Shown here: one piece after another, positions 1 through 56,523 of the stretch
Layout of the letters: every line of letters begins with the position of its first letter
Numbering within the stretch: the stretch's first letter is position 1
Virus record (IMG/VR): IMGVR_UViG_3300021197_001931
Span: 62,001-126,000 of that record
Strand: one strand, 5' to 3'
Length of the DNA: 64,000 nucleotides
DNA from: a virus
Position numbers and translations under genes: made by a program
Notes under the pieces: model-generated
Told to the model about the DNA's origin: nothing
What the model saw: only the letters and a program-made list of their open reading frames with translations
The model's database searches: none

Positions 1-3000
1 TATCCACCACCAGGCGGGGGCTCTGGGCCCACTTTGCCCGACCTAGGTCCATCCGCAACGGAGCCATCGATTGCTGGTGATTTTCCGGGATTAAGAAATG
101 GCTCAGAGCATGCAAAAAATGTTATTGTTGTTGACAAAGAGAACGCCTCTTTGTCTCTAAGTCCAAATACAGACCCAATTAGAAGAGACTCGCTCGCCCA
201 TTGGGCCACCTTTGAAGAGAGTGGTTTACCGAATCAAACATTAGCTTGGATCAGAGATGGAAGACATGATAGCCTAGTAGAGTCTGCAAGAATAAACAAT
301 ATTGAATATAGAACGTCAACTGATGATGGTGTGCCATCTGAACTTTTTCCATATGGCGTTAGAGAAGAGACGATAAGAATTACGTATAAAGATAATTTCT
401 TAGGTGACGACCCAGAAGCTTTTCTTAGCTATCTTTTAGCAAATGGATTCGCCAACGTTGGTAGAGAATATTTTGACCACGCTTTAGAATATTTTGAAGC
501 GTTTACGCCAGAACAAAACCAAGCTCTTTATGGGGATACAAGCGGGATGTCCCACCAATTGACTTCCCAGGTCGCGTTTGATTACAATTTTTATACAAAA
601 TTATACGAAGAGAATGTAGGCAGATATACGATACCTGAGACAATATATCCCCATATATACACTTTTTATTTAGAAAAAGAAAGGGCACTAGAGGGAGGAG
701 ATAGTCCATTTTACGGCGATATAGTCGATGCTTCTTACCTTGACCCCAGAATTGATCAGGAAGGGTATAGTGAACAGTGGATATACCATGATTTTATCAC
801 ACTAAATAGGCCAATAGAAGAGCAGCGCATTTTTATAAATTTAATAAGAGAAACATCGGTTAGCTCTGAAAAAATTGGAGAAATAGATAGGGGAGAATAT
901 TTTGATGTTTGGGCAGATAGATATCCAAATGCCCTGGCAGGCTCTGTTGAAACAGCAGCTGGCTCAACGCTGATTCGAATCGGAATAGACAAACTTACAG
1001 ACAAGTATAAAAATGTAATTATACCTTTGACCACTGAGGATAGAATTCATTCAAGCTACAATTCGTATAAAGAGTTGTTCCCTATGTTTGCAGATATACA
1101 ATTTTCACAAACGTCTCCGAACAAAGTGGTTCAAAGCCTAACAGACACACCAGATGATGATGCTAATTTTTCAATTTTTAATAATTTAATGAGAGATGTT
1201 ATTTCTGATTTTATAGCCCTAAGCAGAGTTGGCGGGATAAACGTATTTTCAACAGTTAAGAATTTTGCAGAAAACCACGAACAAGCATACCCAGACTCAC
1301 TAGGTAACCCTTCTCTTTTGCCTACTGCTGGAAACGCAACTAGAAGAGTTTTTAATTTGGGAGATTGGGCTCTCGGAGAAGAATCCATTGATTACAACGA
1401 ATCAGATTACATATTTTTACAAAATTTTGCTTCTGAAGAAGCTGAAACAACATTATCTGATCTGATTACAATAAGAAGAAATTCTGATGTCTTAGTTGAG
1501 GATTTTGTTTTAGCAGACATCCTGCCTAATTTAAGAAATACATTACTTAATGCGTACAACAATCACCGGAGAACTTATAGAGACATATTGTCTGGAAATA
1601 GGGCCTACTCTGAAGATGTGTTTTTTAAAGTTAGCAAATTTGCTATTTCGCCAAGCGGAGTCCGCTCTTCGACGCCCATTCAAAGTTTTTATCTTGTGAA
1701 TGACGAGCATAATAGAAGTGTGGTTAATCTTATAGATACGCAGTTAAAGTATGGCGAAACATATGAATATGAAATTAACACATGTAGGCTGGTGTATGGG
1801 ACCAAGACACGAATAACATCTGCTAGATATTTTAGACCTGATAGTTTTAGAATACGAACAGATGGGGAGCCTGGCTTTATGGTTTCTGGCGTGTTTAGGC
1901 CCGTTGTTGCTGGTGAAGTTTCTTTTATAGATGAAGCAACCACGCCAACAACCCCACCAATCGGCCCAGGCGGAGGCCCTGGCTCAGGGGGGACACCCCC
2001 AATTAGTTTCGAACCACTCCCAGCTGAGTTTTATTCCTCTGGGGGCCAAATAAATTTGGTTGATGTTGACATTCAACTTGTGCCTTCAATACAGCTCATT
2101 GAACTTCCTTATGTTTCATCTATAACGGCTGGGATTAACGTTTTGCGAAGAACTATGTTGGACGACCCTCCCATGCCACCAGAGGTTGAGGTGCTCCCAT
2201 ATACTGGTGTTAATGACCATCTTCTATTTTTACTAAATACTGGAGCTGGCTCAAGAGAGTTCTTGCCAATATCTTTCAATAGCGAAGAACAAAATTTTAT
2301 AGATAGGATTAGGCTAAACAATCCAGGGTCGGATACAGATGAAATTTTATATGAGAACGATGATCCATCAACTATATTTGAAGTTTATAGATTAGAGAGA
2401 AAACCCACTTCGTATAATGATTTTAAAGGAAACCTTTTAGCCGAGGTTAGCTCTATAGATGAATTAATAGGATACAGGCAAGCGTCGTCAGTTGGGTATC
2501 GAAACTTTATTCAGCCAAATACGGTATATTATTACATGTTTAGGGCGGTTGATATTCATGGGCACGTATCTCATCCAAGCCCAGTGTATCAAATTGAATT
2601 AATAGACGATCAAGGGGCAGTATATCCGATCATAAGAAGCTTTGAGTTTGAGTCGCAATTACAAAGAAAGTCTAAAATTAAAAAATTAAATAGATTTTTA
2701 AAAATTAGTCCCACTTTTTTGCAAAGTGTTCTGGGAGATCTAAGCATAACCTCTGGTCCCCCGGCTACTGCACCAAGGGAAGATAGTCTTCCTCTTGGGG
2801 TTCAAACCCTAAGTCTTTGGGACAAAAGTTTTAAAATTAGGTTGACAGGACGAAAAACTGGTAGGAAAATTGACTTAAATATCAATTTTAATAAAGAATA
2901 TGATAATACGCTTCCTGACGAGGCTCCTGACATTGTTTATGATGAGGCTACCAGCCCAGCGGAGCCAGTCACGACTACACCAGAATCGACATATACACCA

Positions 3001-3372
3001 CCGGATGTCCCCGATGAATCTGAAGTCAGCCCTCCTTTGAAGGAAACTGAGTTTATACCTGGCACGCTGCCCCCAGAATTGCGACCTGATACTAGCGCGC
3101 CTCCTTTAAAGGAAGTTGAGCTTACACTTGGCACACTTCCCCCAGAATTGCGACCTGATACTAGCGCGCCTAGTATGATTCCACGCGAAACATTAGGAAA
3201 CGTAAACACTCGGCGCCCACCAGGAGATCCAAGCTTTGGTAGAGATTCAATGCCTGCCGGCGGCAGAGTCTTTCGGGATTTTCCTCCCGCTCCTCCCCCA
3301 CGCACTCCCCCGCGGACCCATCAACAGTCATCAGTTGATGATCCGAAGAATCGCCGCTACCGGGACGATTAA
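1..3372 (+). CDS. Large virion structural protein, 5'-truncated by the window edge
   Basis: The reading frame is open from base 1 (encoding a Pro/Gly-rich YPPPGGGSGPT stretch), so the TTG at 34 is probably not the real start and the protein begins upstream. About 1,120 residues are visible. The middle holds two stretches that look like fibronectin-III-type beta sandwiches (for example TYEYEINTCRLVYG and NTVYYYMFRAVDIHGH), separated by a Gly/Pro linker near 1963-2010. The C-terminal ~160 residues are Pro-rich and low complexity, with a 23-residue unit repeated in tandem (see repeat entry) and a basic end. No enzyme motif is seen. Position next to other virion genes suggests a baseplate or fibre-associated component; the exact role is unknown. 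Confidence 0.6.
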   Translation, partial: YPPPGGGSGPTLPDLGPSATEPSIAGDFPGLRNGSEHAKNVIVVDKENASLSLSPNTDPIRRDSLAHWATFEESGLPNQTLAWIRDGRHDSLVESARINNIEYRTSTDDGVPSELFPYGVREETIRITYKDNFLGDDPEAFLSYLLANGFANVGREYFDHALEYFEAFTPEQNQALYGDTSGMSHQLTSQVAFDYNFYTKLYEENVGRYTIPETIYPHIYTFYLEKERALEGGDSPFYGDIVDASYLDPRIDQEGYSEQWIYHDFITLNRPIEEQRIFINLIRETSVSSEKIGEIDRGEYFDVWADRYPNALAGSVETAAGSTLIRIGIDKLTDKYKNVIIPLTTEDRIHSSYNSYKELFPMFADIQFSQTSPNKVVQSLTDTPDDDANFSIFNNLMRDVISDFIALSRVGGINVFSTVKNFAENHEQAYPDSLGNPSLLPTAGNATRRVFNLGDWALGEESIDYNESDYIFLQNFASEEAETTLSDLITIRRNSDVLVEDFVLADILPNLRNTLLNAYNNHRRTYRDILSGNRAYSEDVFFKVSKFAISPSGVRSSTPIQSFYLVNDEHNRSVVNLIDTQLKYGETYEYEINTCRLVYGTKTRITSARYFRPDSFRIRTDGEPGFMVSGVFRPVVAGEVSFIDEATTPTTPPIGPGGGPGSGGTPPISFEPLPAEFYSSGGQINLVDVDIQLVPSIQLIELPYVSSITAGINVLRRTMLDDPPMPPEVEVLPYTGVNDHLLFLLNTGAGSREFLPISFNSEEQNFIDRIRLNNPGSDTDEILYENDDPSTIFEVYRLERKPTSYNDFKGNLLAEVSSIDELIGYRQASSVGYRNFIQPNTVYYYMFRAVDIHGHVSHPSPVYQIELIDDQGAVYPIIRSFEFESQLQRKSKIKKLNRFLKISPTFLQSVLGDLSITSGPPATAPREDSLPLGVQTLSLWDKSFKIRLTGRKTGRKIDLNINFNKEYDNTLPDEAPDIVYDEATSPAEPVTTTPESTYTPPDVPDESEVSPPLKETEFIPGTLPPELRPDTSAPPLKEVELTLGTLPPELRPDTSAPSMIPRETLGNVNTRRPPGDPSFGRDSMPAGGRVFRDFPPAPPPRTPPRTHQQSSVDDPKNRRYRDD
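3031..3168 (+). repeat. Tandem 69-base coding repeat, two units
   Basis: Two consecutive 69-base units start at 3031 and 3100 and encode 23-residue repeats beginning PPLKE and ending LPPELRPDTSA. The second halves of the units are almost identical at the DNA level while the first halves have diverged, which indicates a fairly recent in-frame duplication in the Pro-rich tail of the first gene. Confidence 0.9.
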
Positions 3373-44856: not shown

Positions 44857-47800
44857 ATGGCACATGAAGACGGACACGATGAAGCTGAACCACAAGGAGG
44901 CAACGTTGGCCTTAGATTGTCCGACGATCAGTGGATCGTAAACAATGGCTATTCAGCAGACTACACAGCAAACTCAATTCGTCAAAGTCTAATCAACAGC
45001 ATTAATGAAGGCACAGCAATTAGAAGGGGAGTTTTCATAACCTTGCAAGAGTGGTTTGATTCTGAGGTTAGGACGAACAATGCTCGGTCATGGTTTGCAA
45101 ACGTATCAAATTTAAATATAACAATAGGTGGATCTCCTGACTTTCGACTTGCATATAACGCGACTCAGGCCGTCAACAATGGAGACATAAGGCCATTCGT
45201 TGCGGCTGGTTTCTCTGCGAGGGCGACTGCAATTATAGCTTCAAATCCCGACTCCTCTTTTCGAAATGTAGCTAGAAATGGCTACGTCCACAATAGAATT
45301 AGAAATATATACACGTTTCCCAGCGGCCCAGTGCCTCGTGACATTGTGGAGCAAGTACAGGGAAATTTGCAACAATTTTACGCTGACTCCGAGTCAGAGG
45401 TTAAAACAAGAGAGCAGCTAGATGAATTTATAAGAACAAAGTTTGTAGCGATTCTTGAAACACTGGGGGCGCCTGGTGATATAAATCAAGATCAGCAAGA
45501 TGCATATACCAGATGGGCCACTGGTGATTCAACACTTACAACGACAGATAATTTTCAAGTTGCAATTCGAAATTATCTATATCAACAATTTGCATGGCTT
45601 TATTATACACTCAGGGCTCAACAATTTGTAGATCCATCTCTTGGAAACGACGGCACGCAATTAATGAGTGAAGTGTTGCTCGACATGGACCTGAATGGCC
45701 TTGCCGAAATATATAAAAATGCCCGAATACGCGAGCTAGTCTCTGAGGCTCGTATTGATGCTACTGCAGATAATAGTATAGCCCAAGCTGCAGCGCGAGC
45801 GATTTTGGGCGACCAGGCTTTCGAGGACCTTACAGTAGTTGGACAACAGCTTGGCCTGATAGAAGAAGCAGAGACAGATGATATTGAAGAAACGTTAGAG
45901 GAGAATATAGAGGCACAAGTAGATAACACAAGAACAATACCTCCTGCGCAGTTGGCGCAACAAAGAAGGCTCGCAGAACAAGCATTTTTATTAGATTACT
46001 TAGACAGGTATGCCCTAATCAATAAAAAAAGAGGCGAAAGATATGTTACCCCCGATGGGGATCCTCACTTCATTATGGTTCATGGTCCTACCGATACCAT
46101 AGTAAATAAATTAATGTATAACCCTGCTCTAGAAGAATTAGATTCAATCAAAACATCTGAGTTATCTGGCCTTGTACCAAAAATACGATTATACAAATCA
46201 AGTTACCTACCAACCGAAGATTTTATTAGAGGTAGGGAAATAAGACACAACATACCTTTTAAAAGTTTTATAAATCCCCAAGAAATAGAAGACATGCTGA
46301 CTTCAGATTTTGATAGGGGCCAGGGAGTTGGCATAAAGAGTTTTGAATGGCGTCTTGAGGGGCGAGATCCTTTTGCGGCCCGTAGGGATATATTTGCTAG
46401 GTTGACACTATTTTTTCAAACTATGGATGAGTTTATAAAAACTCGAAATGCGCCAAATCCAAAGTTTGTTGATAATCAGCAAGATGTACCATTACAGGGC
46501 GGCGATGATCCATTTAGTTTTAGATATGTTGATTTAGTAAACATAGGAATGGCCCATCCTGAAAAGAATTTTATATGGGATCCAGACTATTACAAGATTG
46601 AGGCTGAAGTTGGTTGGCACGACCCTGGTGACAGGGGAGACAGTAGCACTTTTTTAAGTGAGGGAACAAGAAACGCCATAAAAAACTCTACTATGGTTCT
46701 TCATTTGGCTGCATATGACCACGAGATTGACATAAATGACGAAGGCAATGTAACTTTAACCATAGAATATCTCGCTTGGCAAGAGGGCGTTTATTTGGGC
46801 CCAGATTCCGATATTTTGTCAACCCCAGAAAGAAGAAGAGATAGACTCAGGTATGTCAAAATTTTAGCTGACAGGCAAAAAGGAAACTGCCCAGAACAAT
46901 ATATTGCAGATTTGCAGGAGGAATACAAGAAAAAAGTTAGAAGACAGAATACAGAGAGTTGGGGGAGGTTACTAAATGGATTATATGAAAACGATAGAAT
47001 ATTTTTTACGAAAGTAGATACAGACTTTTTGGATATTTACCTAAACGAGGGCCGTTCCGGTATTGTACAGCCAATGTTAGAAGAGCTTGGCCTGTCTACT
47101 CCTTTAGCTGAATTTGATCCGGCTGACCCCTCTAACACAGATGCGGCTGCTCCAGCATCCCAAGAAGAGTTGGAATCTAGGATGCCCGAGAGCGTAGATG
47201 GTGCTAATTTTGATGAAAACGAGACTATTTTAGAGTCTTTAAAGGAGCTTCAATATACTCAAGATGACGAGAACTATCATTTACAATTTTTTTATTTTGG
47301 AGATCTGCTTCAAACTGCTCTAGAGGTTGTTCACTCTGACCAAACTCCCCAAGAGGACTCATATGGAGCGAGAAACAAGCTAAAAGAAAATATGAGAATT
47401 CTATTGGGCCCAATCAGCTATGAATTAAACAGAAGAGTTACAGAAAGTGAGGCTCCAGAGAGTATAGCCTCTAAATACATACAAGAGTTAATATATGATA
47501 TAAATCTTGCTGACATTCCTATATCTGTCCACTACTTTATTGATTGGTTTTTAACCAAGGTTGTCGCCCAAGAAAGAACAATATATCCCGTCCTGTCCTT
47601 CATCAGAGAGGTAACTAGTGACCTAATAGCTAACGCTATGAGAACACAAAGCGGAGCAGAGAGAAATGTAGCCAGACAAGAGCTACAGCTTAGAACAAAT
47701 TTTTTTACTGCAGCTGGTTCTAGTAGAGGGCAGGAAGAGAAGCTGTTTCAATATCCATACTTAAATTCTGTCCCTAGCGGCGGTGGGGACTCAGTTTTTA

Positions 47801-48474
47801 TAGAAGAGGACCCCTCTTCGGTCTTCACCAGGGTCAACCTGGCGGGCCCTGGTATAAATTTGCCAAGGCCAATACTTTCAAAGCCTCAAATAAATCAAAA
47901 ATCCTATGATTATATGCTAGTTTACGCCATAAATACTGGGGCCACTGAAGACTTGGATGGTGATAGAGACAAAGACAGAGAAAGGGGAATTTACCATTTT
48001 GGCATAGGAAAACCATATGGCATAATTAAAAATATTAAATTCTCAAAAACAGATATTCCATTTTTAAGAGAAAGCAGGCTAGAGCAAGAGTTTTTAGGTC
48101 AATTGACTGGTCTAGCGGTTCTGGCGAACGTTTACAACGTTACTATAGAGTGCTACGGAACAACTATGTTCCACCCAGGCATGAAGATCTATGTCAACCC
48201 GCTTGGTCTATCTCCAAAGTTTGGCTCCCCAGTGCCCCGAAGTGGCAAATCGTCCCCCGCCAGCATTCTAGGAATTGGGGGATATCATGTCGTGACAAAA
48301 GTTCACTCCCGCATTGAGAGGGGCCTCTATGTAACTACGATAACTGCAATATGGGAGTCAGCGGGGGCTTCTTTGGCAGATTCGGGAACAAGTGTTGCTC
48401 AAATTGGTGAGGCTGATATTGATTGTGTTACAACACGTAAAGAAATTAAATCACTATTGACTTCAATTTCTTAG
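44857..48474 (+). CDS. Giant baseplate protein
   Basis: A 1,205-residue protein, the largest complete gene in the window. Mixed helical N-terminal half (an acidic segment near 345-370) and a C-terminal domain with TGLAVLANVYNVTIECYG, PGMKIYVNPLGL and GIGGYHVVTKVHSRIERGLY, a beta-barrel-like pattern that ends many hub or tube-associated baseplate proteins. It is a likely structural component of the hub or inner baseplate. No enzymatic motif is seen. GAGGT lies about 10 bases before the ATG. Confidence 0.65.
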   Translation: MAHEDGHDEAEPQGGNVGLRLSDDQWIVNNGYSADYTANSIRQSLINSINEGTAIRRGVFITLQEWFDSEVRTNNARSWFANVSNLNITIGGSPDFRLAYNATQAVNNGDIRPFVAAGFSARATAIIASNPDSSFRNVARNGYVHNRIRNIYTFPSGPVPRDIVEQVQGNLQQFYADSESEVKTREQLDEFIRTKFVAILETLGAPGDINQDQQDAYTRWATGDSTLTTTDNFQVAIRNYLYQQFAWLYYTLRAQQFVDPSLGNDGTQLMSEVLLDMDLNGLAEIYKNARIRELVSEARIDATADNSIAQAAARAILGDQAFEDLTVVGQQLGLIEEAETDDIEETLEENIEAQVDNTRTIPPAQLAQQRRLAEQAFLLDYLDRYALINKKRGERYVTPDGDPHFIMVHGPTDTIVNKLMYNPALEELDSIKTSELSGLVPKIRLYKSSYLPTEDFIRGREIRHNIPFKSFINPQEIEDMLTSDFDRGQGVGIKSFEWRLEGRDPFAARRDIFARLTLFFQTMDEFIKTRNAPNPKFVDNQQDVPLQGGDDPFSFRYVDLVNIGMAHPEKNFIWDPDYYKIEAEVGWHDPGDRGDSSTFLSEGTRNAIKNSTMVLHLAAYDHEIDINDEGNVTLTIEYLAWQEGVYLGPDSDILSTPERRRDRLRYVKILADRQKGNCPEQYIADLQEEYKKKVRRQNTESWGRLLNGLYENDRIFFTKVDTDFLDIYLNEGRSGIVQPMLEELGLSTPLAEFDPADPSNTDAAAPASQEELESRMPESVDGANFDENETILESLKELQYTQDDENYHLQFFYFGDLLQTALEVVHSDQTPQEDSYGARNKLKENMRILLGPISYELNRRVTESEAPESIASKYIQELIYDINLADIPISVHYFIDWFLTKVVAQERTIYPVLSFIREVTSDLIANAMRTQSGAERNVARQELQLRTNFFTAAGSSRGQEEKLFQYPYLNSVPSGGGDSVFIEEDPSSVFTRVNLAGPGINLPRPILSKPQINQKSYDYMLVYAINTGATEDLDGDRDKDRERGIYHFGIGKPYGIIKNIKFSKTDIPFLRESRLEQEFLGQLTGLAVLANVYNVTIECYGTTMFHPGMKIYVNPLGLSPKFGSPVPRSGKSSPASILGIGGYHVVTKVHSRIERGLYVTTITAIWESAGASLADSGTSVAQIGEADIDCVTTRKEIKSLLTSIS

Positions 48475-48492
48475 TATGAAATAATTATTATA

Positions 48493-49710
48493 ATGGCTAA
48501 CTTTCAAGGCAAAAACAAACAAACTATAAAAAAGTTATTTTATGAAAGACTAAAATATTCATCACAAGCTTTTCCATCAAACGAAAGCCTAGTAGGAGTG
48601 ATCAAAAACTTTCAATTTGCAGAAAGAGCAATGTATGGAAGAATGAATAAAGAACATATTGCAATTTCTTTAAATACGAGCGAAATGAAGAGCTTAAAAA
48701 GCACTAAAGACCCTAAAAAACAAACTATGGTTGTAAATTTTGTTGCAGATGCTTTTGAAAACTTTATAATTGAATTTCAAAAAGCATCTATTTCTGGGAA
48801 ACTAGACGCTGATGATCCTTACCTATTTGATGTCAAAGCCTATAGGGGCTTTATAGACCCAGTTAAGGGCTATCGAGATTACACTAGTAAAATTATTAAT
48901 ATTTTTAATACAAAGTTTTTAACAAAAGAGAGAAGAGAGACAATTAACGATTTTTCCTCTTTTTTTGTCTTATTTTCTTCATACTTGAGTGAGATCTCAG
49001 AATCGTTACCAATAACTTTTGGTTCATATATTACAAGCATTTATTCTGGAGCTTTAAACACGGGCCTAGCAATACATATTTCTGATTTAGATGCATCAAA
49101 TGATTCTGTAAAAGAAGAATTCATTAACAGCACTAATTTTCAATTCTATAAAGTGACTGCCGAAAAACATGGATTTTCAATAAACAAAAATGCCCCTTGG
49201 ATTTTAACTGCCGACATAGCCAGCCCATCCATGCTAAGGTATTCATCCCGATACGGATTTGATAGCGAAGACTCTATACTGTCTGGCTATTATTACAAGG
49301 CCTACACGAAGGACATTGGAAATTTAAAAAGTCTGTTCTATAGGGCCTATAGCCTGTTAATTAGCGAAAAGCCTAAAAACATAAAAGTTAACGATTTTGG
49401 TATGAGAGATGTGACCTGTAGGGCCGAATTGTCCTTACAAGAATTTGGGGAAAGTTACCCTGACAGAAAATGGGTTGACTTTTACGTTGATATTAGATAT
49501 GTTGAGCAACATAAACCTGTGAGTCTGGCTTTTATGAAAATCGTTAAACGAGAAGCAAAGTCGATACAAGCACTAAGTGGTACTGGGGCAGCTCAACAGT
49601 ATATCAACACAGTAATCCGAGGATTTGACAATCACAAAGGCTCTTTTGCTCAAAAAGTTGCAAAACAGCAGTTCAAAAAAGATAAAAAAATAACTAAACC
49701 AACATATTAA
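48493..49710 (+). CDS. Conserved-looking protein of unknown function between baseplate and replication genes
   Basis: A 405-residue Lys/Phe/Ser-rich protein without recognisable domain. Aromatic-rich central segments (YSSRYGFDSEDSILSGYYYK, LKSLFYRAYSLLI) and a basic C-terminus (KKDKKITKP) are visible. It is the last gene before the polymerase and overlaps its ATG by one base (TAATG). No Shine-Dalgarno site; AATAATTATTATA precedes the ATG, as for the baseplate genes, suggesting it belongs to that group. A virion protein is the better guess. Confidence 0.55.
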   Translation: MANFQGKNKQTIKKLFYERLKYSSQAFPSNESLVGVIKNFQFAERAMYGRMNKEHIAISLNTSEMKSLKSTKDPKKQTMVVNFVADAFENFIIEFQKASISGKLDADDPYLFDVKAYRGFIDPVKGYRDYTSKIINIFNTKFLTKERRETINDFSSFFVLFSSYLSEISESLPITFGSYITSIYSGALNTGLAIHISDLDASNDSVKEEFINSTNFQFYKVTAEKHGFSINKNAPWILTADIASPSMLRYSSRYGFDSEDSILSGYYYKAYTKDIGNLKSLFYRAYSLLISEKPKNIKVNDFGMRDVTCRAELSLQEFGESYPDRKWVDFYVDIRYVEQHKPVSLAFMKIVKREAKSIQALSGTGAAQQYINTVIRGFDNHKGSFAQKVAKQQFKKDKKITKPTY

Positions 49711-50903
49711 TGATTTTCCAAACACTCGATAACAAAAGGGAGTGTGTCGGTGTATTTCTCAATGGAGAACTACATTTTGATAACGTTCCTGATAATCTTA
49801 CTCGTACATGGTCTTATTCTTCGTTTCTAGAGGACTATGATGGTATCGAATATGCATTCCTGTATGCTAAGAGGCCCCTAGACGAGGCGTGCCCCAGACA
49901 CTTGGGTGATGAGTGGGATTCCATCAACAATCGCCTCAAAGCGTTTCTTACGGCCTTTAAGGAGTCTAAAATAGATTTGTCCAAAAACTGCTTTTTTGAC
50001 CTAGTTCCCCAGAAGTTTCTAAAGCAATACTGCTCTGTTCGCAACAAGATTACTGAGTATGTGATAAACAATTATCACAAACCAGAAAACTACGATTTTT
50101 TGGTAAACCTAGCAAAAATTACGCATGACATGAAGTTTAGGGATTTGAATATTGATAAAACTGAATTGCGTGACCTAATGCACGAGGAGAAAACTAGAAA
50201 ATTTGCTTATAAGCTGGGTCACATCTCACATTCTTGCAATTATAATATTTTTGGAACAAAGACAGGCAGATTGACCACCAAGAAGAACAGTTTTCCTATA
50301 CTTACAATGGATAAGAGATATAGAAAAATTATCAAGCCAACAAACGATTGGTTTGTATCTCTAGATTTTAATGGCGCTGAACTAAGAACTTTTCTAGCAC
50401 TCGCAGGAATTAGCCAGCCAGATGTAGATGTACATGAGTGGAATCGCATCAATGCTTATAATGAAGTTGGTAGCCGGAAAGAGGTAAAGGAAAGGTTTTT
50501 TGCGTGGCTTTACAATATGGAATCCAAGGATTACCTTTCTCATAGAATTTACGGCAAAAGTAGAGAAAAGGTCATAGAAGAGTATTATCAAAACAACAGC
50601 ATTACAAATCCCTTTGGCAGGTCTATTTCAGCAGACGATTATCATGCCATGAGTTATCTAATTCAAAGCACTTGTTCGGATGTTGTGCTGCGACAAATGA
50701 TTAAGTTGAACAAATACTTGCAGGATAAGGATTCTTTTGTTGCATTTTGTGTGCATGATGAAGTAGTCTTGGACCTTACCGATGTTGAGTGTAAGCTAAT
50801 CAATGTTTTGGTTGAATATTTTACAAATACGCCTTTAGGAAATTTTAAAGTTAATGTAAACTATGGCAAGAATTATGGAGAAATGAGAGAATGGATTCAA
50901 TAA
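49710..50903 (+). CDS. Minimal family A DNA polymerase (polymerase domain only)
   Basis: A 397-residue PolA-type polymerase. Motif A is SLDFNGAELR (D219, E224, R226). Motif B is R256-x3-K260-x3-F264-x3-Y268 followed by N instead of the usual G. IQSTCSDVVLRQMIK matches the helix before the palm, and motif C is CVHDEVVLD (H349, D350, E351). The N-terminal ~150 residues show no DEDD motifs of a 3'-5' exonuclease, and the protein is much shorter than Klenow (about 600). The 5'-3' exonuclease is a separate gene at 54150. Together with the DnaE gene at 62045 this gives the phage two polymerases. Confidence 0.88.
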   Translation: MIFQTLDNKRECVGVFLNGELHFDNVPDNLTRTWSYSSFLEDYDGIEYAFLYAKRPLDEACPRHLGDEWDSINNRLKAFLTAFKESKIDLSKNCFFDLVPQKFLKQYCSVRNKITEYVINNYHKPENYDFLVNLAKITHDMKFRDLNIDKTELRDLMHEEKTRKFAYKLGHISHSCNYNIFGTKTGRLTTKKNSFPILTMDKRYRKIIKPTNDWFVSLDFNGAELRTFLALAGISQPDVDVHEWNRINAYNEVGSRKEVKERFFAWLYNMESKDYLSHRIYGKSREKVIEEYYQNNSITNPFGRSISADDYHAMSYLIQSTCSDVVLRQMIKLNKYLQDKDSFVAFCVHDEVVLDLTDVECKLINVLVEYFTNTPLGNFKVNVNYGKNYGEMREWIQ

Positions 50904-51724
50904 TCGGATTAGGTGCAGCGGGTTGTAGAATAGCTGATAAATTCTCTCAATACCCTCAATATGATATTTATAAGATGGATGTCGGCCTCAAAAGAACTCC
51001 AAGAACATATGGCATAAAAAAAGCCAGCACCCCCGAAGAGTTTGAGCAATCAATCGGCAGCCTTAAGAGATTCTTCAAGCCGTTACAGGGTGAAGTTTTA
51101 TTTGTTGTTGGAGCTTCTGGCTTTGTTTCTGGTGCTTCTTTGAGGATTCTTGAACAAATAAAATCACACGACACTTCGATCTTGTGCGTTTGTTCAGACC
51201 CAGAATTACTAGGTGAGATGGATAAGATGCAACAGCGCTTAACTATAAATGTGTTTCAGCAATATGCTAGATCTGGAGTTTTTAATAAAGTGGTGTTGGC
51301 CTACAACAATCAGCTTGAAGATATTTTGGGAGATATTCCAGTGATAGGCTTTTATGACAAGTTGAATGATTTACTTATTTCTACAATTAATATCATAAAT
51401 GTGCTTGACCGCTCTGATAGTATTATGGATAATATTTCATCACCGCATGAGGTTAGTAGGCTGTGCACCTATGGAATCGTTGATTTTCAAACAGGGGAAG
51501 AGAAACTATTTTTTCCTGTTGACAGCGTTAGGGAAAAGGTCTATTATTATGCCATCAATGAGGAGAAATTAAGAGAGTCGAGCGATATTCGCAAGAAAAT
51601 AATTTCTCAAGTTAAGGAGAATTCTGTTGACACGAAGGTATCATATGGAATATACTCTACTCAATACGAAGAAGACTACGTTTATTGCGTAGCATATTCT
51701 TCAACGATACAACAATTAGATTAA
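50891..51724 (+). CDS. Divergent FtsZ/tubulin-superfamily protein
   Basis: A 277-residue protein. IIGLGAAGCRIADKF (residues 4-18) resembles the first glycine-rich loop of FtsZ. VVGASGFVSGASLRILEQI (72-90) occupies the place of the GGGTGTG loop. AYNNQLEDILGDI (137-149) and GFYDKLNDLLISTINII (153-169) match the purine-contact NDKL and F..aNDvL segments of FtsZ. Near 184-199 HEVSRLCTYGIVDF parallels the T7/H10 region, and TKVSYGIYSTQYEEDYVYCV near the end parallels the FtsZ C-terminal sheet. The GTP loop is altered, so activity is uncertain. It overlaps the polymerase gene by 13 bases. Confidence 0.6.
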   Translation: MDSIIGLGAAGCRIADKFSQYPQYDIYKMDVGLKRTPRTYGIKKASTPEEFEQSIGSLKRFFKPLQGEVLFVVGASGFVSGASLRILEQIKSHDTSILCVCSDPELLGEMDKMQQRLTINVFQQYARSGVFNKVVLAYNNQLEDILGDIPVIGFYDKLNDLLISTINIINVLDRSDSIMDNISSPHEVSRLCTYGIVDFQTGEEKLFFPVDSVREKVYYYAINEEKLRESSDIRKKIISQVKENSVDTKVSYGIYSTQYEEDYVYCVAYSSTIQQLD

Positions 51725-51772: not shown

Positions 51773-52528
51773 ATGGGAATCAATCTAGACAAAATGCGAG
51801 AGAAGCTTGCCGCAGTTCAGAACCGTGGTGATTCAAGTAAGAGTGCTTTCTGGCGTCCAGTGGACGGCGACCAGACTATTCGAATTATTCCAACAGAGGA
51901 TGGAGACCCTTTCAAGGAGGTATATTTTCACTATAATGTAGCTAAGGGTGGAATTGTTTGTCCAAAGCGTAACTATGGTGATGACTGTCCGATTTGCGAG
52001 TTTGGATCAAAGCTGTGGCGTGAAGGGTCAGATAACAACGATGATGCTTCAAAGAGGATGGCAAAGAGCCTGTTTGCAAGGCAGCGATTCTTTAGCCCTG
52101 TAATGGTGCGAGGAGAAGAGCAAGAAGGTCCCCGATGGTGGGGCTATGGCAAGATGGCCTATGAGACACTTCTCAGCCTTGTTCTAAATCCTGATTATGG
52201 GGATATCACTGACCCAGAAGAAGGAACCGACCTTGTTCTTAGTTACGGCAAGCCACCTGGTGCTTCGTTCCCGCAAACAAAGATCCAGCCTCGACGTAGG
52301 ACTTCTCTCATGATGGAAGACGAAAACACAATTGCTGCAACTCTAAGCGCTATTCCGGACGTTGAACAGCTTTTTGAACGTAAGTCGACCCAAGAGGTCC
52401 AGGCGATACTTGACGAGTTTATGTCTAAGGACGTAGATGCGGAGGCCTCATCTTCGGAATCTGTTCACTATGGCAAGAACAGCGGAAATTCTGTTGATCA
52501 GGCATTTAAAGAGCTAATGAACGCATAG
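51773..52528 (+). CDS. Single-stranded DNA-binding protein (gp32-like)
   Basis: A 251-residue protein with gp32 features. The N-terminal basic cooperativity segment (MGINLDKMREKL) is followed by a core with WRPVDGDQTIRIIP, and a zinc site made of H53, C63, C72 and C75 (FHYN, CPKRNYGDDCPIC). The tail is acidic and Ser-rich. It would coat ssDNA during replication and recombination with UvsX, helicase and the polymerases. T4 gp32 has 301 residues. AAGGAG precedes the ATG. Confidence 0.88.
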   Translation: MGINLDKMREKLAAVQNRGDSSKSAFWRPVDGDQTIRIIPTEDGDPFKEVYFHYNVAKGGIVCPKRNYGDDCPICEFGSKLWREGSDNNDDASKRMAKSLFARQRFFSPVMVRGEEQEGPRWWGYGKMAYETLLSLVLNPDYGDITDPEEGTDLVLSYGKPPGASFPQTKIQPRRRTSLMMEDENTIAATLSAIPDVEQLFERKSTQEVQAILDEFMSKDVDAEASSSESVHYGKNSGNSVDQAFKELMNA

Positions 52529-52579: not shown

Positions 52580-53695
52580 ATGGCAAGAGCGAGAAAAGTA
52601 AAAACTGGTAAGTTGTCAATGGATGAGATGCGTGGCTTGATTAATAAGCAGGCTGGCTGCGAGGTGGCGTTTAATTTAAATGAGGATAATCCCACAGAGG
52701 TAGAGGAGTGGATCCCAACTGGATCTAGGTGGCTTGATTCTATTGTTTGTCGAGGGCGTCTGGCAGGTATCCCGGTCGGTAAAGTAATTGAAATTGCCGG
52801 ATTAGAGGCCACAGGCAAATCATATATGGCTGCCCAGGTAGCAGCCAATGCTCAAAAGATGGGGATTGATGTTTTCTACTTTGATTCTGAATCAGCAATT
52901 GATCCAACTTTTCTAGTTCGATCAGGATGTGATCTGGACAATATGATGTATGTTCAGGCCTCATCAGTTGAGTTTGTGTTAGAAACCATAGAGATGCTCT
53001 TGTCGTCTAATGACAATAAGATGTTATTTATCTGGGACTCTTTAGCATTAACACCAGCTATTAGTGATATTGAGGGTGATTTTAATCCTCAATCTTCAAT
53101 GGCCATGAAGGCTAGAATTTTGTCCAAAGGTATGGCCAAATTGACACAGCCGATTGCTAATTCGAAATCAACATTTCTTGTGCTTAACCAGCTAAAGTCA
53201 AACATTACTAGAGTGGCTGCTGAAGCTCTAACTACTCCATATGTTACTCCTGGTGGTAAGTCTATGATTTACGCCTACTCCCTTAGAATTTGGCTAACGG
53301 GCCGCAAAGCTAAGAAGAGTTTTGTAGTGGATGAGAATGGGTTTAGAGTCGGAAGTGAGGTAAAAGTAAAGTTAGAAAAATCAAGGTTTGGAACCCAAGG
53401 GAGACAGTGCACTTTCAAAATTCTTTGGGGAGACGAGATTGGTATTCAGGATGATGAAAGTCTCTTTGAAGCTATTAAGTCTTCAAAGTACCTAGATCAA
53501 CGTGGTGCCTGGTATGAGTTGGATATGGGCAACGATACCAAAGAAAAATTTCAATCATCAAAGTGGGTTGAACTTATGCAAAATGATTCGTTTAAGCAGA
53601 GAGTTCACAACATAATGGATGAAGAGATTATTTTTAATTTTGAAAAACGAGAGGGAAGCGCAGAGGACTACTATAATATTGATCCCGAAGAGTAG
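52580..53695 (+). CDS. uvsX: UvsX/RecA-type recombinase
   Basis: A 371-residue RecA-fold ATPase. Walker A GLEATGKS at about 74-81, YFDSESAID, Walker B MLFIWDSLAL near 149-156, and a LVLNQLKSNI DNA-binding-loop-proximal motif. Length is close to T4 UvsX (391). It would form filaments on ssDNA coated by gp32 and catalyse strand invasion for recombination-dependent replication. CTTGGAGGGATA precedes the ATG. Confidence 0.92.
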   Translation: MARARKVKTGKLSMDEMRGLINKQAGCEVAFNLNEDNPTEVEEWIPTGSRWLDSIVCRGRLAGIPVGKVIEIAGLEATGKSYMAAQVAANAQKMGIDVFYFDSESAIDPTFLVRSGCDLDNMMYVQASSVEFVLETIEMLLSSNDNKMLFIWDSLALTPAISDIEGDFNPQSSMAMKARILSKGMAKLTQPIANSKSTFLVLNQLKSNITRVAAEALTTPYVTPGGKSMIYAYSLRIWLTGRKAKKSFVVDENGFRVGSEVKVKLEKSRFGTQGRQCTFKILWGDEIGIQDDESLFEAIKSSKYLDQRGAWYELDMGNDTKEKFQSSKWVELMQNDSFKQRVHNIMDEEIIFNFEKREGSAEDYYNIDPEE

Positions 53696-53757: not shown

Positions 53758-54153
53758 ATGGTTATTTCCGGCAGACACAAGAGACATATTAAGTTGGCCA
53801 AGAGGGTCGCATATCAGTCTGATTTCCACGAGTATCGTCATGGCGCAGTTCTGGTAAAGGGCAATCGTGTACTAAATACATCAGCAAACAAGAATAGCTA
53901 TAAGCTATGGGGACAAAGGTTCCGCCACCGTGATTGTGGATACGCTACCCATCACGCAGAACTTGGATGTATTCTTGGCGTCGACAGGTCTATCACCCAA
54001 GGTGCAACAGTTTATGTAGCCCGTATCGGCAAGAAGGGGGAGTTTAGAATGTCTAAGCCCTGTTCGATGTGCGAATCAGCCATGAGACACGTAGGCATCA
54101 AAAAGGTTGTATACACTGTTGATGAAGAAGAGATTGGTTCCTTTAAGCTATGA
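53758..54153 (+). CDS. Zinc-dependent deaminase, dCMP/cytidine deaminase-like
   Basis: A 131-residue protein with the deaminase zinc signature: H66-A-E68 in THHAELGC and P101-C102-x2-C105 in SKPCSMCESAMRH, in the correct order and spacing. It is shorter than T4 dCMP deaminase (193) and lacks its extra allosteric region. Likely substrates are dCMP or a cytidine nucleoside, providing dUMP for the ThyX encoded at 59641; RNA or DNA base deamination cannot be excluded. Its translation may be controlled by the hairpin at 53716-53756. Its stop overlaps the next ATG by 4 bases. Confidence 0.75.
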   Translation: MVISGRHKRHIKLAKRVAYQSDFHEYRHGAVLVKGNRVLNTSANKNSYKLWGQRFRHRDCGYATHHAELGCILGVDRSITQGATVYVARIGKKGEFRMSKPCSMCESAMRHVGIKKVVYTVDEEEIGSFKL

Positions 54154-55106
54154 AGAGAGTTTTGATAATCGATGGCCTCAATTCTTATTATAGAGCTTAT
54201 ATTTGTGACCCCAGTGTTTCATCCCATGGCCAGCCTATAGGGGGTATAAAGGGGTTTATCAAAATTCTACAGAGAATGTGCCGCGAGGTAAAACCTGATA
54301 GAATTGTAATTTGTTGGGATGGTCCTGGTGGGAGTAGAAAAAGGCGCACACAGAATAAAAACTATAAATCAGGAAGAAAGCCAATAAAGCTAAACAGAAA
54401 TATACATGTTTTGTCTGTGGACGAAGAGCTAGAAAACAAAGTCTGGCAACAAACAGAGCTAGTAGACATGTTAAACGATATGCCGGTAATTCAACTTTTA
54501 TTTCCAGAGGTTGAGGCTGACGATATTATAAGCTGTGTTGCTCAGGCACCGGTGTTCTCAGGTTGGCAAAAAATCATTGTATCGTCCGATAAAGACTTTA
54601 TTCAACTATGTGATGACGATGTAATACTTTACAGGCCGTCACAAAAACAAATTTTAAATAAGCCAAGAATTATCGAGACTTACGGAATTCATCCAACTAA
54701 TTTTGCCCTAGCTAGAGCTATCGCAGGAGACCCTAGCGACAACATAAAGGGCGTGCAAGGCGTGGGTTTAACCACAGTATCAAAAAGATTTGTTTTTCTG
54801 AAAGAGGAAAAGTCTTTTACTTTTAAAGACATATATGATTTTTGCGATGAAGTAGAGAAAAAACTTAAGGTTCATACGTCTATTTTAGAGAACAAAAAGG
54901 TAATAGAAAATAATTATAAACTGATGCAGCTTTACTCTCCATCGATATCGGTCCAGAGTAGAAAAAAAGTAAATTATATACTTGAGAACGCAGACTTGTC
55001 TTTTAATAAAACAGCCATTATGAAGACAATGTATGGAATAGGATTCGGCGAATTAAACTGGTCGGATCTTTCCACAACCTTAAGAAGAATTTCGGTTGAA
55101 AAGTAA
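54150..55106 (+). CDS. 5'-3' exonuclease / flap nuclease (PolA N-domain, T4 RNase H-like)
   Basis: A 318-residue FEN-family nuclease. Metal-binding acids appear in LIIDGLNSYYRAY (D8), VICWDGPGGSRKR, PEVEADDIIS, VSSDKDFIQL and AGDPSDNIKG, and a helix-hairpin-helix GVQGVGLTTV follows. It would remove RNA primers and trim flaps. In bacterial Pol I this domain is fused to the polymerase; here it is encoded apart from the short family A polymerase at 49710. It overlaps the deaminase gene by 4 bases. Confidence 0.9.
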   Translation: MKRVLIIDGLNSYYRAYICDPSVSSHGQPIGGIKGFIKILQRMCREVKPDRIVICWDGPGGSRKRRTQNKNYKSGRKPIKLNRNIHVLSVDEELENKVWQQTELVDMLNDMPVIQLLFPEVEADDIISCVAQAPVFSGWQKIIVSSDKDFIQLCDDDVILYRPSQKQILNKPRIIETYGIHPTNFALARAIAGDPSDNIKGVQGVGLTTVSKRFVFLKEEKSFTFKDIYDFCDEVEKKLKVHTSILENKKVIENNYKLMQLYSPSISVQSRKKVNYILENADLSFNKTAIMKTMYGIGFGELNWSDLSTTLRRISVEK

Positions 55107-55140: not shown

Positions 55141-56523
55141 ATGAAGTTTAATGAGAAGGCCGATTTTAGTCGGTTTGGTAAGTCGTTTCAAGAAAGTTTG
55201 TGCCAACTTGTGTTGCAAGATAGGCCGTTTGCGGATCAAATCTCTGAGGTCCTTGATTACAGCTTCTTTGAGCTGAAATACCTTCAGACATTCGTAAGAA
55301 AGATATTTTCTTATCGTAACAAGTATGGGGTTCACCCTTCTAGTAAAATTATGATGACTATTTTGCGTTCTGACCTTGAGAACGAGACTGAGATAGTTCA
55401 AAAGCAAATTAGAGATTATTTTGCTAGGATTTATGAACAGGAAATCCAAGACTCGGATTATATTAAAGATACCTCTCTAGAATTTTGTAAGAAGCAGAAA
55501 CTTAAAGAGGCAATGCTTAAGTCTGTAGAACTGCTACAAAATTCTTCTTTTGAGGAGATTGCTAGTACAATCAACGAGGCCCTTCGTCTGGGGTCAGATA
55601 ATAATTTTGGTTATGATTATTTAAAAGACTTTGAGCAGAGATTCCTTTTTAAGGCACGAAACCCTATTGCTACTGGCTGGAAGGAAATGGATAATATCGT
55701 AAAAGATGGCCTTGGAAAGGGCGAGCTTGGTGTCGTAATCGCCCCTACTGGGGCTGGAAAGTCAATGGCCCTTGTTCATATTGGAGCCCAAGCAGTTAAG
55801 GCTGGCAAAACGGTCGTTTACTATACTTTGGAGCTTCAAGACACTGTGGTTGGCACTAGATTTGATAGTTGCATAACCGGACTGCCGCTGAATGATCTCA
55901 GGCCGTTGAAGGAAGAAGTGTTTGAGATGGTAAAGGATCTGCCTGGCAAACTTATCATCAAGGAATATCCAACAAGGTCTGCGAGCACAAACACGCTAAA
56001 AACACACATTGAAAAGTTGAAGAATCGAGATATTCATGTAGACATGGTAATTGTAGATTACGCAGACCTTCTTCGACCAGTTAATATCCGAAAAGAAAGA
56101 AGGCACGAACTTGAGAATCTTTATGAAGATTTGCGAGGGATGGCACAAGAGTTTAAATTTTGTGTCTGGACAGCTTCACAAACAAATCGTTCTGGGTTAA
56201 ACTCGGAAATCATCACAATGGAGTCAATATCAGAGGCGTTCAACAAATGCTTTGTTGCAGACTTTATTTTCTCCATCTCTCGCACTATTCAAGACAAGGC
56301 AGTGAATGGGGGTAGAGTATTTGTTGCTAAAAATAGAAATGGGCCAGATGGGATTGTTTTTCCGATATTCATGGATACATCAAATGTCTGCATTAAAGTT
56401 TTGCCTCAATTGGCAGAAGAAAACTTAAATGGAACAAACGCTCCATCATCAAAGGAACAATCGCAAGTTCTTTACGAAAAGTATAAGAAGTTCAAGAAGG
56501 GATCAAATGTAAATGTACAATGA
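55141..56523 (+). CDS. Replicative DNA helicase (DnaB / gp41-like)
   Basis: A 460-residue RecA-fold hexameric helicase. Walker A APTGAGKS at about 201-208, followed by YYTLELQDTVVGTRFDS, Walker B MVIVDYADLL near 302, and ASQTNRSG, a DnaB-type motif 3. The N-terminal ~170 residues form the helical domain that contacts primase. Length matches T4 gp41 (475). It partners with the primase at 7286. The gene ends inside the reductase gene with an 11-base overlap. Confidence 0.92.
   Translation: MKFNEKADFSRFGKSFQESLCQLVLQDRPFADQISEVLDYSFFELKYLQTFVRKIFSYRNKYGVHPSSKIMMTILRSDLENETEIVQKQIRDYFARIYEQEIQDSDYIKDTSLEFCKKQKLKEAMLKSVELLQNSSFEEIASTINEALRLGSDNNFGYDYLKDFEQRFLFKARNPIATGWKEMDNIVKDGLGKGELGVVIAPTGAGKSMALVHIGAQAVKAGKTVVYYTLELQDTVVGTRFDSCITGLPLNDLRPLKEEVFEMVKDLPGKLIIKEYPTRSASTNTLKTHIEKLKNRDIHVDMVIVDYADLLRPVNIRKERRHELENLYEDLRGMAQEFKFCVWTASQTNRSGLNSEIITMESISEAFNKCFVADFIFSISRTIQDKAVNGGRVFVAKNRNGPDGIVFPIFMDTSNVCIKVLPQLAEENLNGTNAPSSKEQSQVLYEKYKKFKKGSNVNVQ

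Follow-up and report, generated by a model that had tools for sequence, protein, structure and literature searches.

The question raised by this locus is what a 277-residue protein with motifs reminiscent of FtsZ and tubulin is doing in the replication operon of a T4-related phage, directly between the genes for a DNA polymerase and a single-strand DNA-binding protein (SSB). The window, i.e., the whole 64,000-nucleotide stretch of DNA that we analysed, comes from a parent record of 161.7 kb.

The replication locus and its tubulin-like gene

The relevant genes of the window, with the evidence for each assignment, are the following.

49710..50903, + strand: family-A DNA polymerase, PolA (PF00476, E 2e-13; PHROG 17)
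50891..51724, + strand: predicted tubulin/FtsZ-superfamily protein, 277 aa (ORF; AlphaFold2 and Foldseek; HHalign; IMG/VR relatives)
51773..52528, + strand: gp32-like single-strand DNA-binding protein (PF08804, E 1e-15; PHROG 1192)
52580..53695, + strand: UvsX-like recombinase, same operon (PHROG 97, E 6e-53)
54150..55106, + strand: 5'-3' exonuclease, same operon (PF02739, E 1e-28)
55141..56523, + strand: DnaB-like replicative helicase, same operon (PHROG 19, E 2e-76)

The polymerase gene and the tubulin-like gene share 13 nt, at the end of the former and the start of the latter, and genes for dCMP deaminase and RNR also lie downstream of the tubulin-like gene. We considered and rejected T4 gp43 as the identity of the upstream polymerase, which PF00476 and PHROG 17 assign to family A. 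Two clade-conserved proteins encoded further upstream had no Pfam or PHROG match: a 405-residue protein (48493-49710) that lies upstream of polA in the same place across the clade, and a 1205-residue protein (44857-48474) that is probably structural, judging by its position.

The tubulin-like gene is under strong purifying selection, comparison with two close relatives giving dN/dS values of ~0.06 and ~0.09. The ORF and the segments GLGAAG, GASGFVSGAS, NNQL and GFYDKLNDLL, which the preliminary description of this DNA had read as FtsZ/tubulin motifs, are all present where it had placed them. The elements of the protein to which we refer below are as follows.

50906..50926, + strand: T1 loop GLGAAGC, residues 6-12, putative phosphate-binding loop (alignment to FtsZ T1; conservation)
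51113..51139, + strand: T4 loop ASGFVSGAS, residues 75-83, at the GGGTGTG position (family consensus GGSGxISGASL)
51251..51274, + strand: VFQQYARS helix, residues 121-128, a family-specific motif outside the pocket (conservation in 115 members)
51305..51307, + strand: Asn139, putative guanine-contact position, that of the Asn of FtsZ PND (aligned to FtsZ)
51350..51409, + strand: helix H7, residues 154-173, with Asn159 at a putative guanine-contact position (model secondary structure)
51410..51460, + strand: segment at the T7/H8 position, residues 174-190, a variable loop without helix H8 and without a conserved catalytic acid
51542..51559, + strand: YYYAIN, residues 218-223, conserved strand of the C-terminal domain (Y218 99%, Y220 98%)

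Two scans of IMG/VR confirmed at least 587 and at least 596 stretches that carry the family. A tblastn search of 50,697 phage records with the 277-residue protein and two of its distant relatives gave no match; a PhuZ query recovered the PhuZ phages from the phage records, whereas the 277-residue query recovered none of them. The protein alone had no significant match in Pfam or PHROG, and a direct profile search of the family against PDB sequences gave no match; among 69 aligned members there were six weak matches to Pfam Tubulin (the best at 0.0085) and nine to TrkA_N. In the prokaryotic GTDB genome set, none of 14 pattern matches was confirmed as a relative. Each record searched held a single copy of the gene, although the records of one subclade described below are fragments, so that a second copy elsewhere is possible in these.

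The parent record encodes a gp23-type capsid protein (PF07068, E 1.7e-62) whose nearest named matches are in Flavobacterium phage immuto, Microcystis phage Mel-JY01 and RM378 (41–51% identity), and because of these matches we classify the carrier as a Far-T4 phage. The uncultured 484-kb phage record LR756508, a jumbo-sized Far-T4 relative with the same replication operon, had the nearest gp23 of all (54% identity). Bacteria of the Flavobacteriales have been predicted as hosts of Far-T4 phages (PMC7198788, PMC13037479). The tubulin-like gene is a single-copy core gene in a clade of uncultured Far-T4 phages, of which there was no cultured member in the records searched.

Predicted fold and remote homology

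From the order of the motifs, the preliminary description had suggested a separate, strongly diverged FtsZ/tubulin family, and had proposed structure prediction with a structural search, and a profile–profile comparison, as ways of checking this. AlphaFold2 run on 16 members gave a best model with pLDDT 88.6 and pTM 0.88 (four others, 68–74), and a second run, led by another sequence (L072) and built on 79 members, gave five models with pLDDT 93.7–94.5 and pTM 0.91. Foldseek searches of the PDB at E ≤ 0.001 returned 544 and 528 matches for the two models, and the best 50 of the 544 and the best 50 of the 528 were all FtsZ or TubZ, with best E-values of 3.6e-13 and 1.2e-11 and, within the best 50 per model, TMq mostly of 0.65–0.73. 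In a viral structure library the top match was an uncultured Caudovirales "FtsZ" (A0A6J5RW92; TMq 0.80), and PhuZ of Noxifer was in fifth place at TMq 0.55, far above the epimerases and dehydrogenases. Naming secondary-structure elements by their order along the model, we found both models to run from S1-H1-S2 to H7 and then through a C-terminal domain of S7, S8, H10, S9 and S10, with no full helix at the H8 and H9 positions in either. The two-domain fold of the superfamily (Rossmann-like GTPase domain, central H7, C-terminal sheet domain) was therefore present in the models of both members, and the 277-residue protein is predicted to have the FtsZ/tubulin fold.

HHalign comparison of the family with eight PhuZ proteins scored 39.8 (E 9e-5, probability 59%) over residues 4-100, the N-terminal half, with 60 column-shuffled controls at 22.4 or below; comparison with ten FtsZ proteins scored 27.6 (E 0.006, probability 6%) over residues 4-187, with shuffled controls at 21.8 or below. 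Unrelated families of the same loci scored 10–21. The alignment with FtsZ was co-linear through T1, T4 and both putative guanine-contact asparagines and ended just past H7; the order of the motifs is therefore non-random, exceeding both the shuffled controls and the neighbouring families. Because the HHalign probabilities are modest, we take the predicted fold as the main evidence and the profiles as support, these being consistent with remote homology to PhuZ and FtsZ. Both checks thus agree with the proposal of a separate, strongly diverged family, with a predicted superfamily fold at 10–15% identity to FtsZ.

It could be argued that this is simply a Rossmann protein that binds NAD(P) and whose GxGxxG loop has been mistaken for that of a tubulin, as some members do have weak matches to TrkA_N and other NAD-binding Pfam families. 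We consider this highly improbable, as epimerases and dehydrogenases matched at E-values of 3e-3 or more and a TM of ~0.3 in the viral library, versus an E-value of 1e-12 and TM of 0.7–0.8 for FtsZ, and the FtsZ alignment spans the putative guanine-contact positions.

Putative nucleotide pocket and T7 region

Among 115 aligned members the T1 loop was strongly conserved (G6 99%, G8 100%, G11 97%, C12 95%), D30 was kept in 87%, and T4 was conserved at G75 (79%), G77 (85%) and S80 (89%), the family consensus lacking a strict GGGTGTG-type signature. N139 and N159 were each present in 106 of the 115 (92%), and HHalign placed the former on the Asn of the FtsZ "PND" and the latter on the N/D that opens H7, positions that contact guanine in FtsZ and tubulin. 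We infer from this conservation that most members probably bind a guanine nucleotide. Residues Q123, Y125, R127 and S128 of the helix motif, which lies outside the pocket, were conserved in 100%.

The T7 region differs from that of FtsZ and PhuZ. The T7 acids, which in the superfamily act catalytically on the next subunit, are invariant in our aligned comparison sets of FtsZ (D209/D212) and PhuZ (D201/D204), whereas across residues 168-195 of the family no column was acidic in more than 68% of the members, and the NxDxxD T7 loop of FtsZ was absent. The preliminary description had noted a T7/H10-like region near residue 187; this is indeed where T7 would lie, but the segment is a variable loop with no conserved T7 motif and no H8 after it. 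The same description had linked a possible pseudo-GTPase to the altered T4 loop, which is insufficient by itself, since that loop is PhuZ-like and the putative guanine-contact asparagines are retained; the part of the idea that stands is carried by the unconserved T7 acid and the H8 missing from the models, which argue against canonical GTP hydrolysis. The T4 loop of PhuZ, GGGSGSxIGP, also departs from GGGTGTG, and PhuZ is a GTPase with dynamic instability, its catalytic mutant D190A giving stable filaments (PMC4244570). Because an active GTPase has a similar loop, the altered T4 loop is no evidence against nucleotide binding. Some columns of the T7 region do have D or E in up to 68% of the members, so that hydrolysis of a non-canonical kind is possible.

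True loss of the pocket was confined to one subclade of the 115 members. Its nine members (L012, L014, L113, L114 and L116-L120) are set apart from the others by a branch with SH-aLRT 99; D30, N139 and N159 are changed in all nine, and G77 of T4 is replaced by an acidic residue in eight. They retain the motifs VLQEYARS and YYY(A/G)IN, and the two loci whose flanks were read (L012 and L014) retain the polA-SSB neighbourhood. This concerted change of guanine- and phosphate-contact positions suggests that the pocket acts as a single functional unit in the rest of the family, and that the protein can do without it in its core function. As the subclade lost the pocket and kept the gene, its position and its other motifs, a structural role for the protein is favoured.

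The same evidence bears on whether the protein might form a PhuZ-like cytomotive filament, which would polymerise with GTP, hydrolyse it in a non-canonical manner and centre or move the phage DNA. The tubulin fold, a T4 loop most like that of PhuZ, and PhuZ being the best profile match would all suit such a filament, but the T7 acid invariant in PhuZ is unconserved here, H8 is absent, there is no long PhuZ-type C-terminal tail, and one subclade survives without the pocket. In addition, a search of the parent record with the phiKZ chimallin (gp54) gave no match, which is a weak test, this sequence being too divergent for the result to prove absence. We regard a filament of this kind as unlikely.

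Gene position and the sister phages

Among 92 loci, all those with both flanks present had the gene between polA and SSB, so that its placement between polymerase and gp32 genes inside the replication operon, first described from the present sequence, is fixed across such loci; a few had extra sequence, up to ~2 kb, within the interval. In loci found via UvsX (n = 72, on contigs that partly overlap the earlier locus sets) the gene was present in 53, and in the other 19 the sequence upstream of SSB was too short for a decision. Between the polA stop and the tubulin-like start there was an overlap in 87 of 155 loci, and in 126 the two overlapped or were no more than 50 nt apart; judged by this spacing, the two genes are translationally coupled. 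Such a fixed place in the operon may mean shared timing rather than contact between the products.

This placement also bears on the possibility of a host division poison, i.e., an FtsZ-like decoy that, in the infected cell, would bind to the FtsZ filaments of the host or cap them. FtsZ is a known target of phages and tops the PDB matches, and filaments could be capped or stalled by a subunit that lacks the T7 acid; however, identity to FtsZ is only 10–15%, and the invariant position between polymerase and SSB suits replication better, making a decoy quite improbable.

The operon order in immuto is the same as in the carriers of the tubulin-like gene. In the Far-T4 phages immuto and Mel-JY01, however, the polA-SSB slot contains no tubulin, and is instead occupied by a protein of the gp002 type (~151 residues), as it is in 77 of 77 immuto-like loci, Mel-JY01 and LR756508 included; no tubulin was found in this slot of LR756508. 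Immuto gp002 itself (L163:1346-1801) has no function assigned, and further gp002-type loci are L164, L165 and L167-L246. Searches for gp002 at the loci of the tubulin-like family and in the parent record gave no match. A UvsX tree parted the carriers of the two proteins by one branch (98/95), and we use it for this split alone because its internal branches are very long; the LR756508 UvsX as a query recovered one near-identical locus. Two apparent resemblances were rejected: that of gp002 to the C-terminal domain of the tubulin-like protein, seen by eye (CTYNV..TLYTIN versus CTYGI..YYYAIN), scored 11.1 by HHalign, below the shuffles, and a 428-residue protein in the Mel-JY01 slot (L164:5406-6692), considered as a tubulin, matched an S-adenosylmethionine lyase model (Pfam E 4e-10).

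A DNA polymerase accessory (processivity or tethering) factor built on the tubulin fold would fit the overlap and close coupling with polA, the occurrence of a different protein in the slot in sister phages, and the finding that the parent record, for all its replication genes, gave no hit with the T4 sliding-clamp family PF02916. That search covered just the one clamp family, though, and the gp002 of the sister clade showed no homology to the tubulin-like protein; we think such a factor rather unlikely. Elsewhere in the parent record (~154.7–156.5 kb) lie an AAA ATPase, MoxR-like by eye, and then an ORF that resembles a partner of the VWA/metallopeptidase type (L320:1429-2511 and 2515-3231). 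This AAA match was rejected as a clamp loader, given its MoxR-like appearance and its metallopeptidase-like neighbour.

Proposed role

Our preferred reading, which we hold tentatively and with somewhat less than even confidence, is that the protein is a divergent core replication component of the tubulin/FtsZ superfamily that binds GTP or GDP and serves as a nucleotide-stabilised scaffold, not as a dynamic GTP-hydrolysing filament. The elements T1, T4 and T6/H7 are predicted to hold the GTP or GDP. The scaffold, which could be a monomer, a dimer or a stable non-dynamic polymer, would organise the polymerase, SSB and phage DNA. The scaffold role, the link to the replisome and the absence of a canonical GTPase are, like nucleotide binding, what we infer. 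A further proposition, possible but rather doubtful, is that a protein of the tubulin superfamily now serves a phage replication machine as a structural component without hydrolytic activity, that it is coupled to the polymerase and can be exchanged for a small, unrelated protein, as in the sister phages, and that one lineage gave up nucleotide binding entirely and kept the protein. The pocket-retaining and pocket-lost lineages would offer a natural split by which it becomes testable which functions of the tubulin fold need GTP.

Comparison with known systems

PhuZ (phiKZ gp39, 201phi2-1 gp59) shares with the family a phage-encoded tubulin fold and a non-GGGTGTG T4 loop, and is its best profile match, yet there is no detectable pairwise similarity between them. 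PhuZ has the invariant T7 Asp pair and a long C-terminal tail, neither of which occurs in the tubulin-like family; the phiKZ gene lies outside any polA-SSB operon, and PhuZ occurs together with a phage nucleus. FtsZ provides the best PDB fold matches (E 3.6e-13) and the co-linear T1, T4 and putative guanine-contact Asn, but the family, besides its low identity to FtsZ, is without GGGTGTG, the T7 NxDxxD and the C-terminal tail, and its models are without H8 and H9. TubZ, compared through the PDB fold search only, also matched in fold (4ei7 and 2xka, TMq 0.67 for each); the tubulin-like protein is ~100 residues shorter, and its neighbours in the 92 loci are replication genes. The uncultured Caudovirales phage "FtsZ" A0A6J5RW92, at TMq 0.80, has 452 residues versus 277 and 12% identity. 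The Far-T4 phage literature searched, which excluded preprints and most subscription papers, made no mention of tubulin or FtsZ. The phage tubulins that reviews describe are PhuZ, from jumbo phages that form a nucleus, and TubZ, from partition systems; to these two groups the family described here would add a third, a core gene tied to replication in a widespread T4-related clade.
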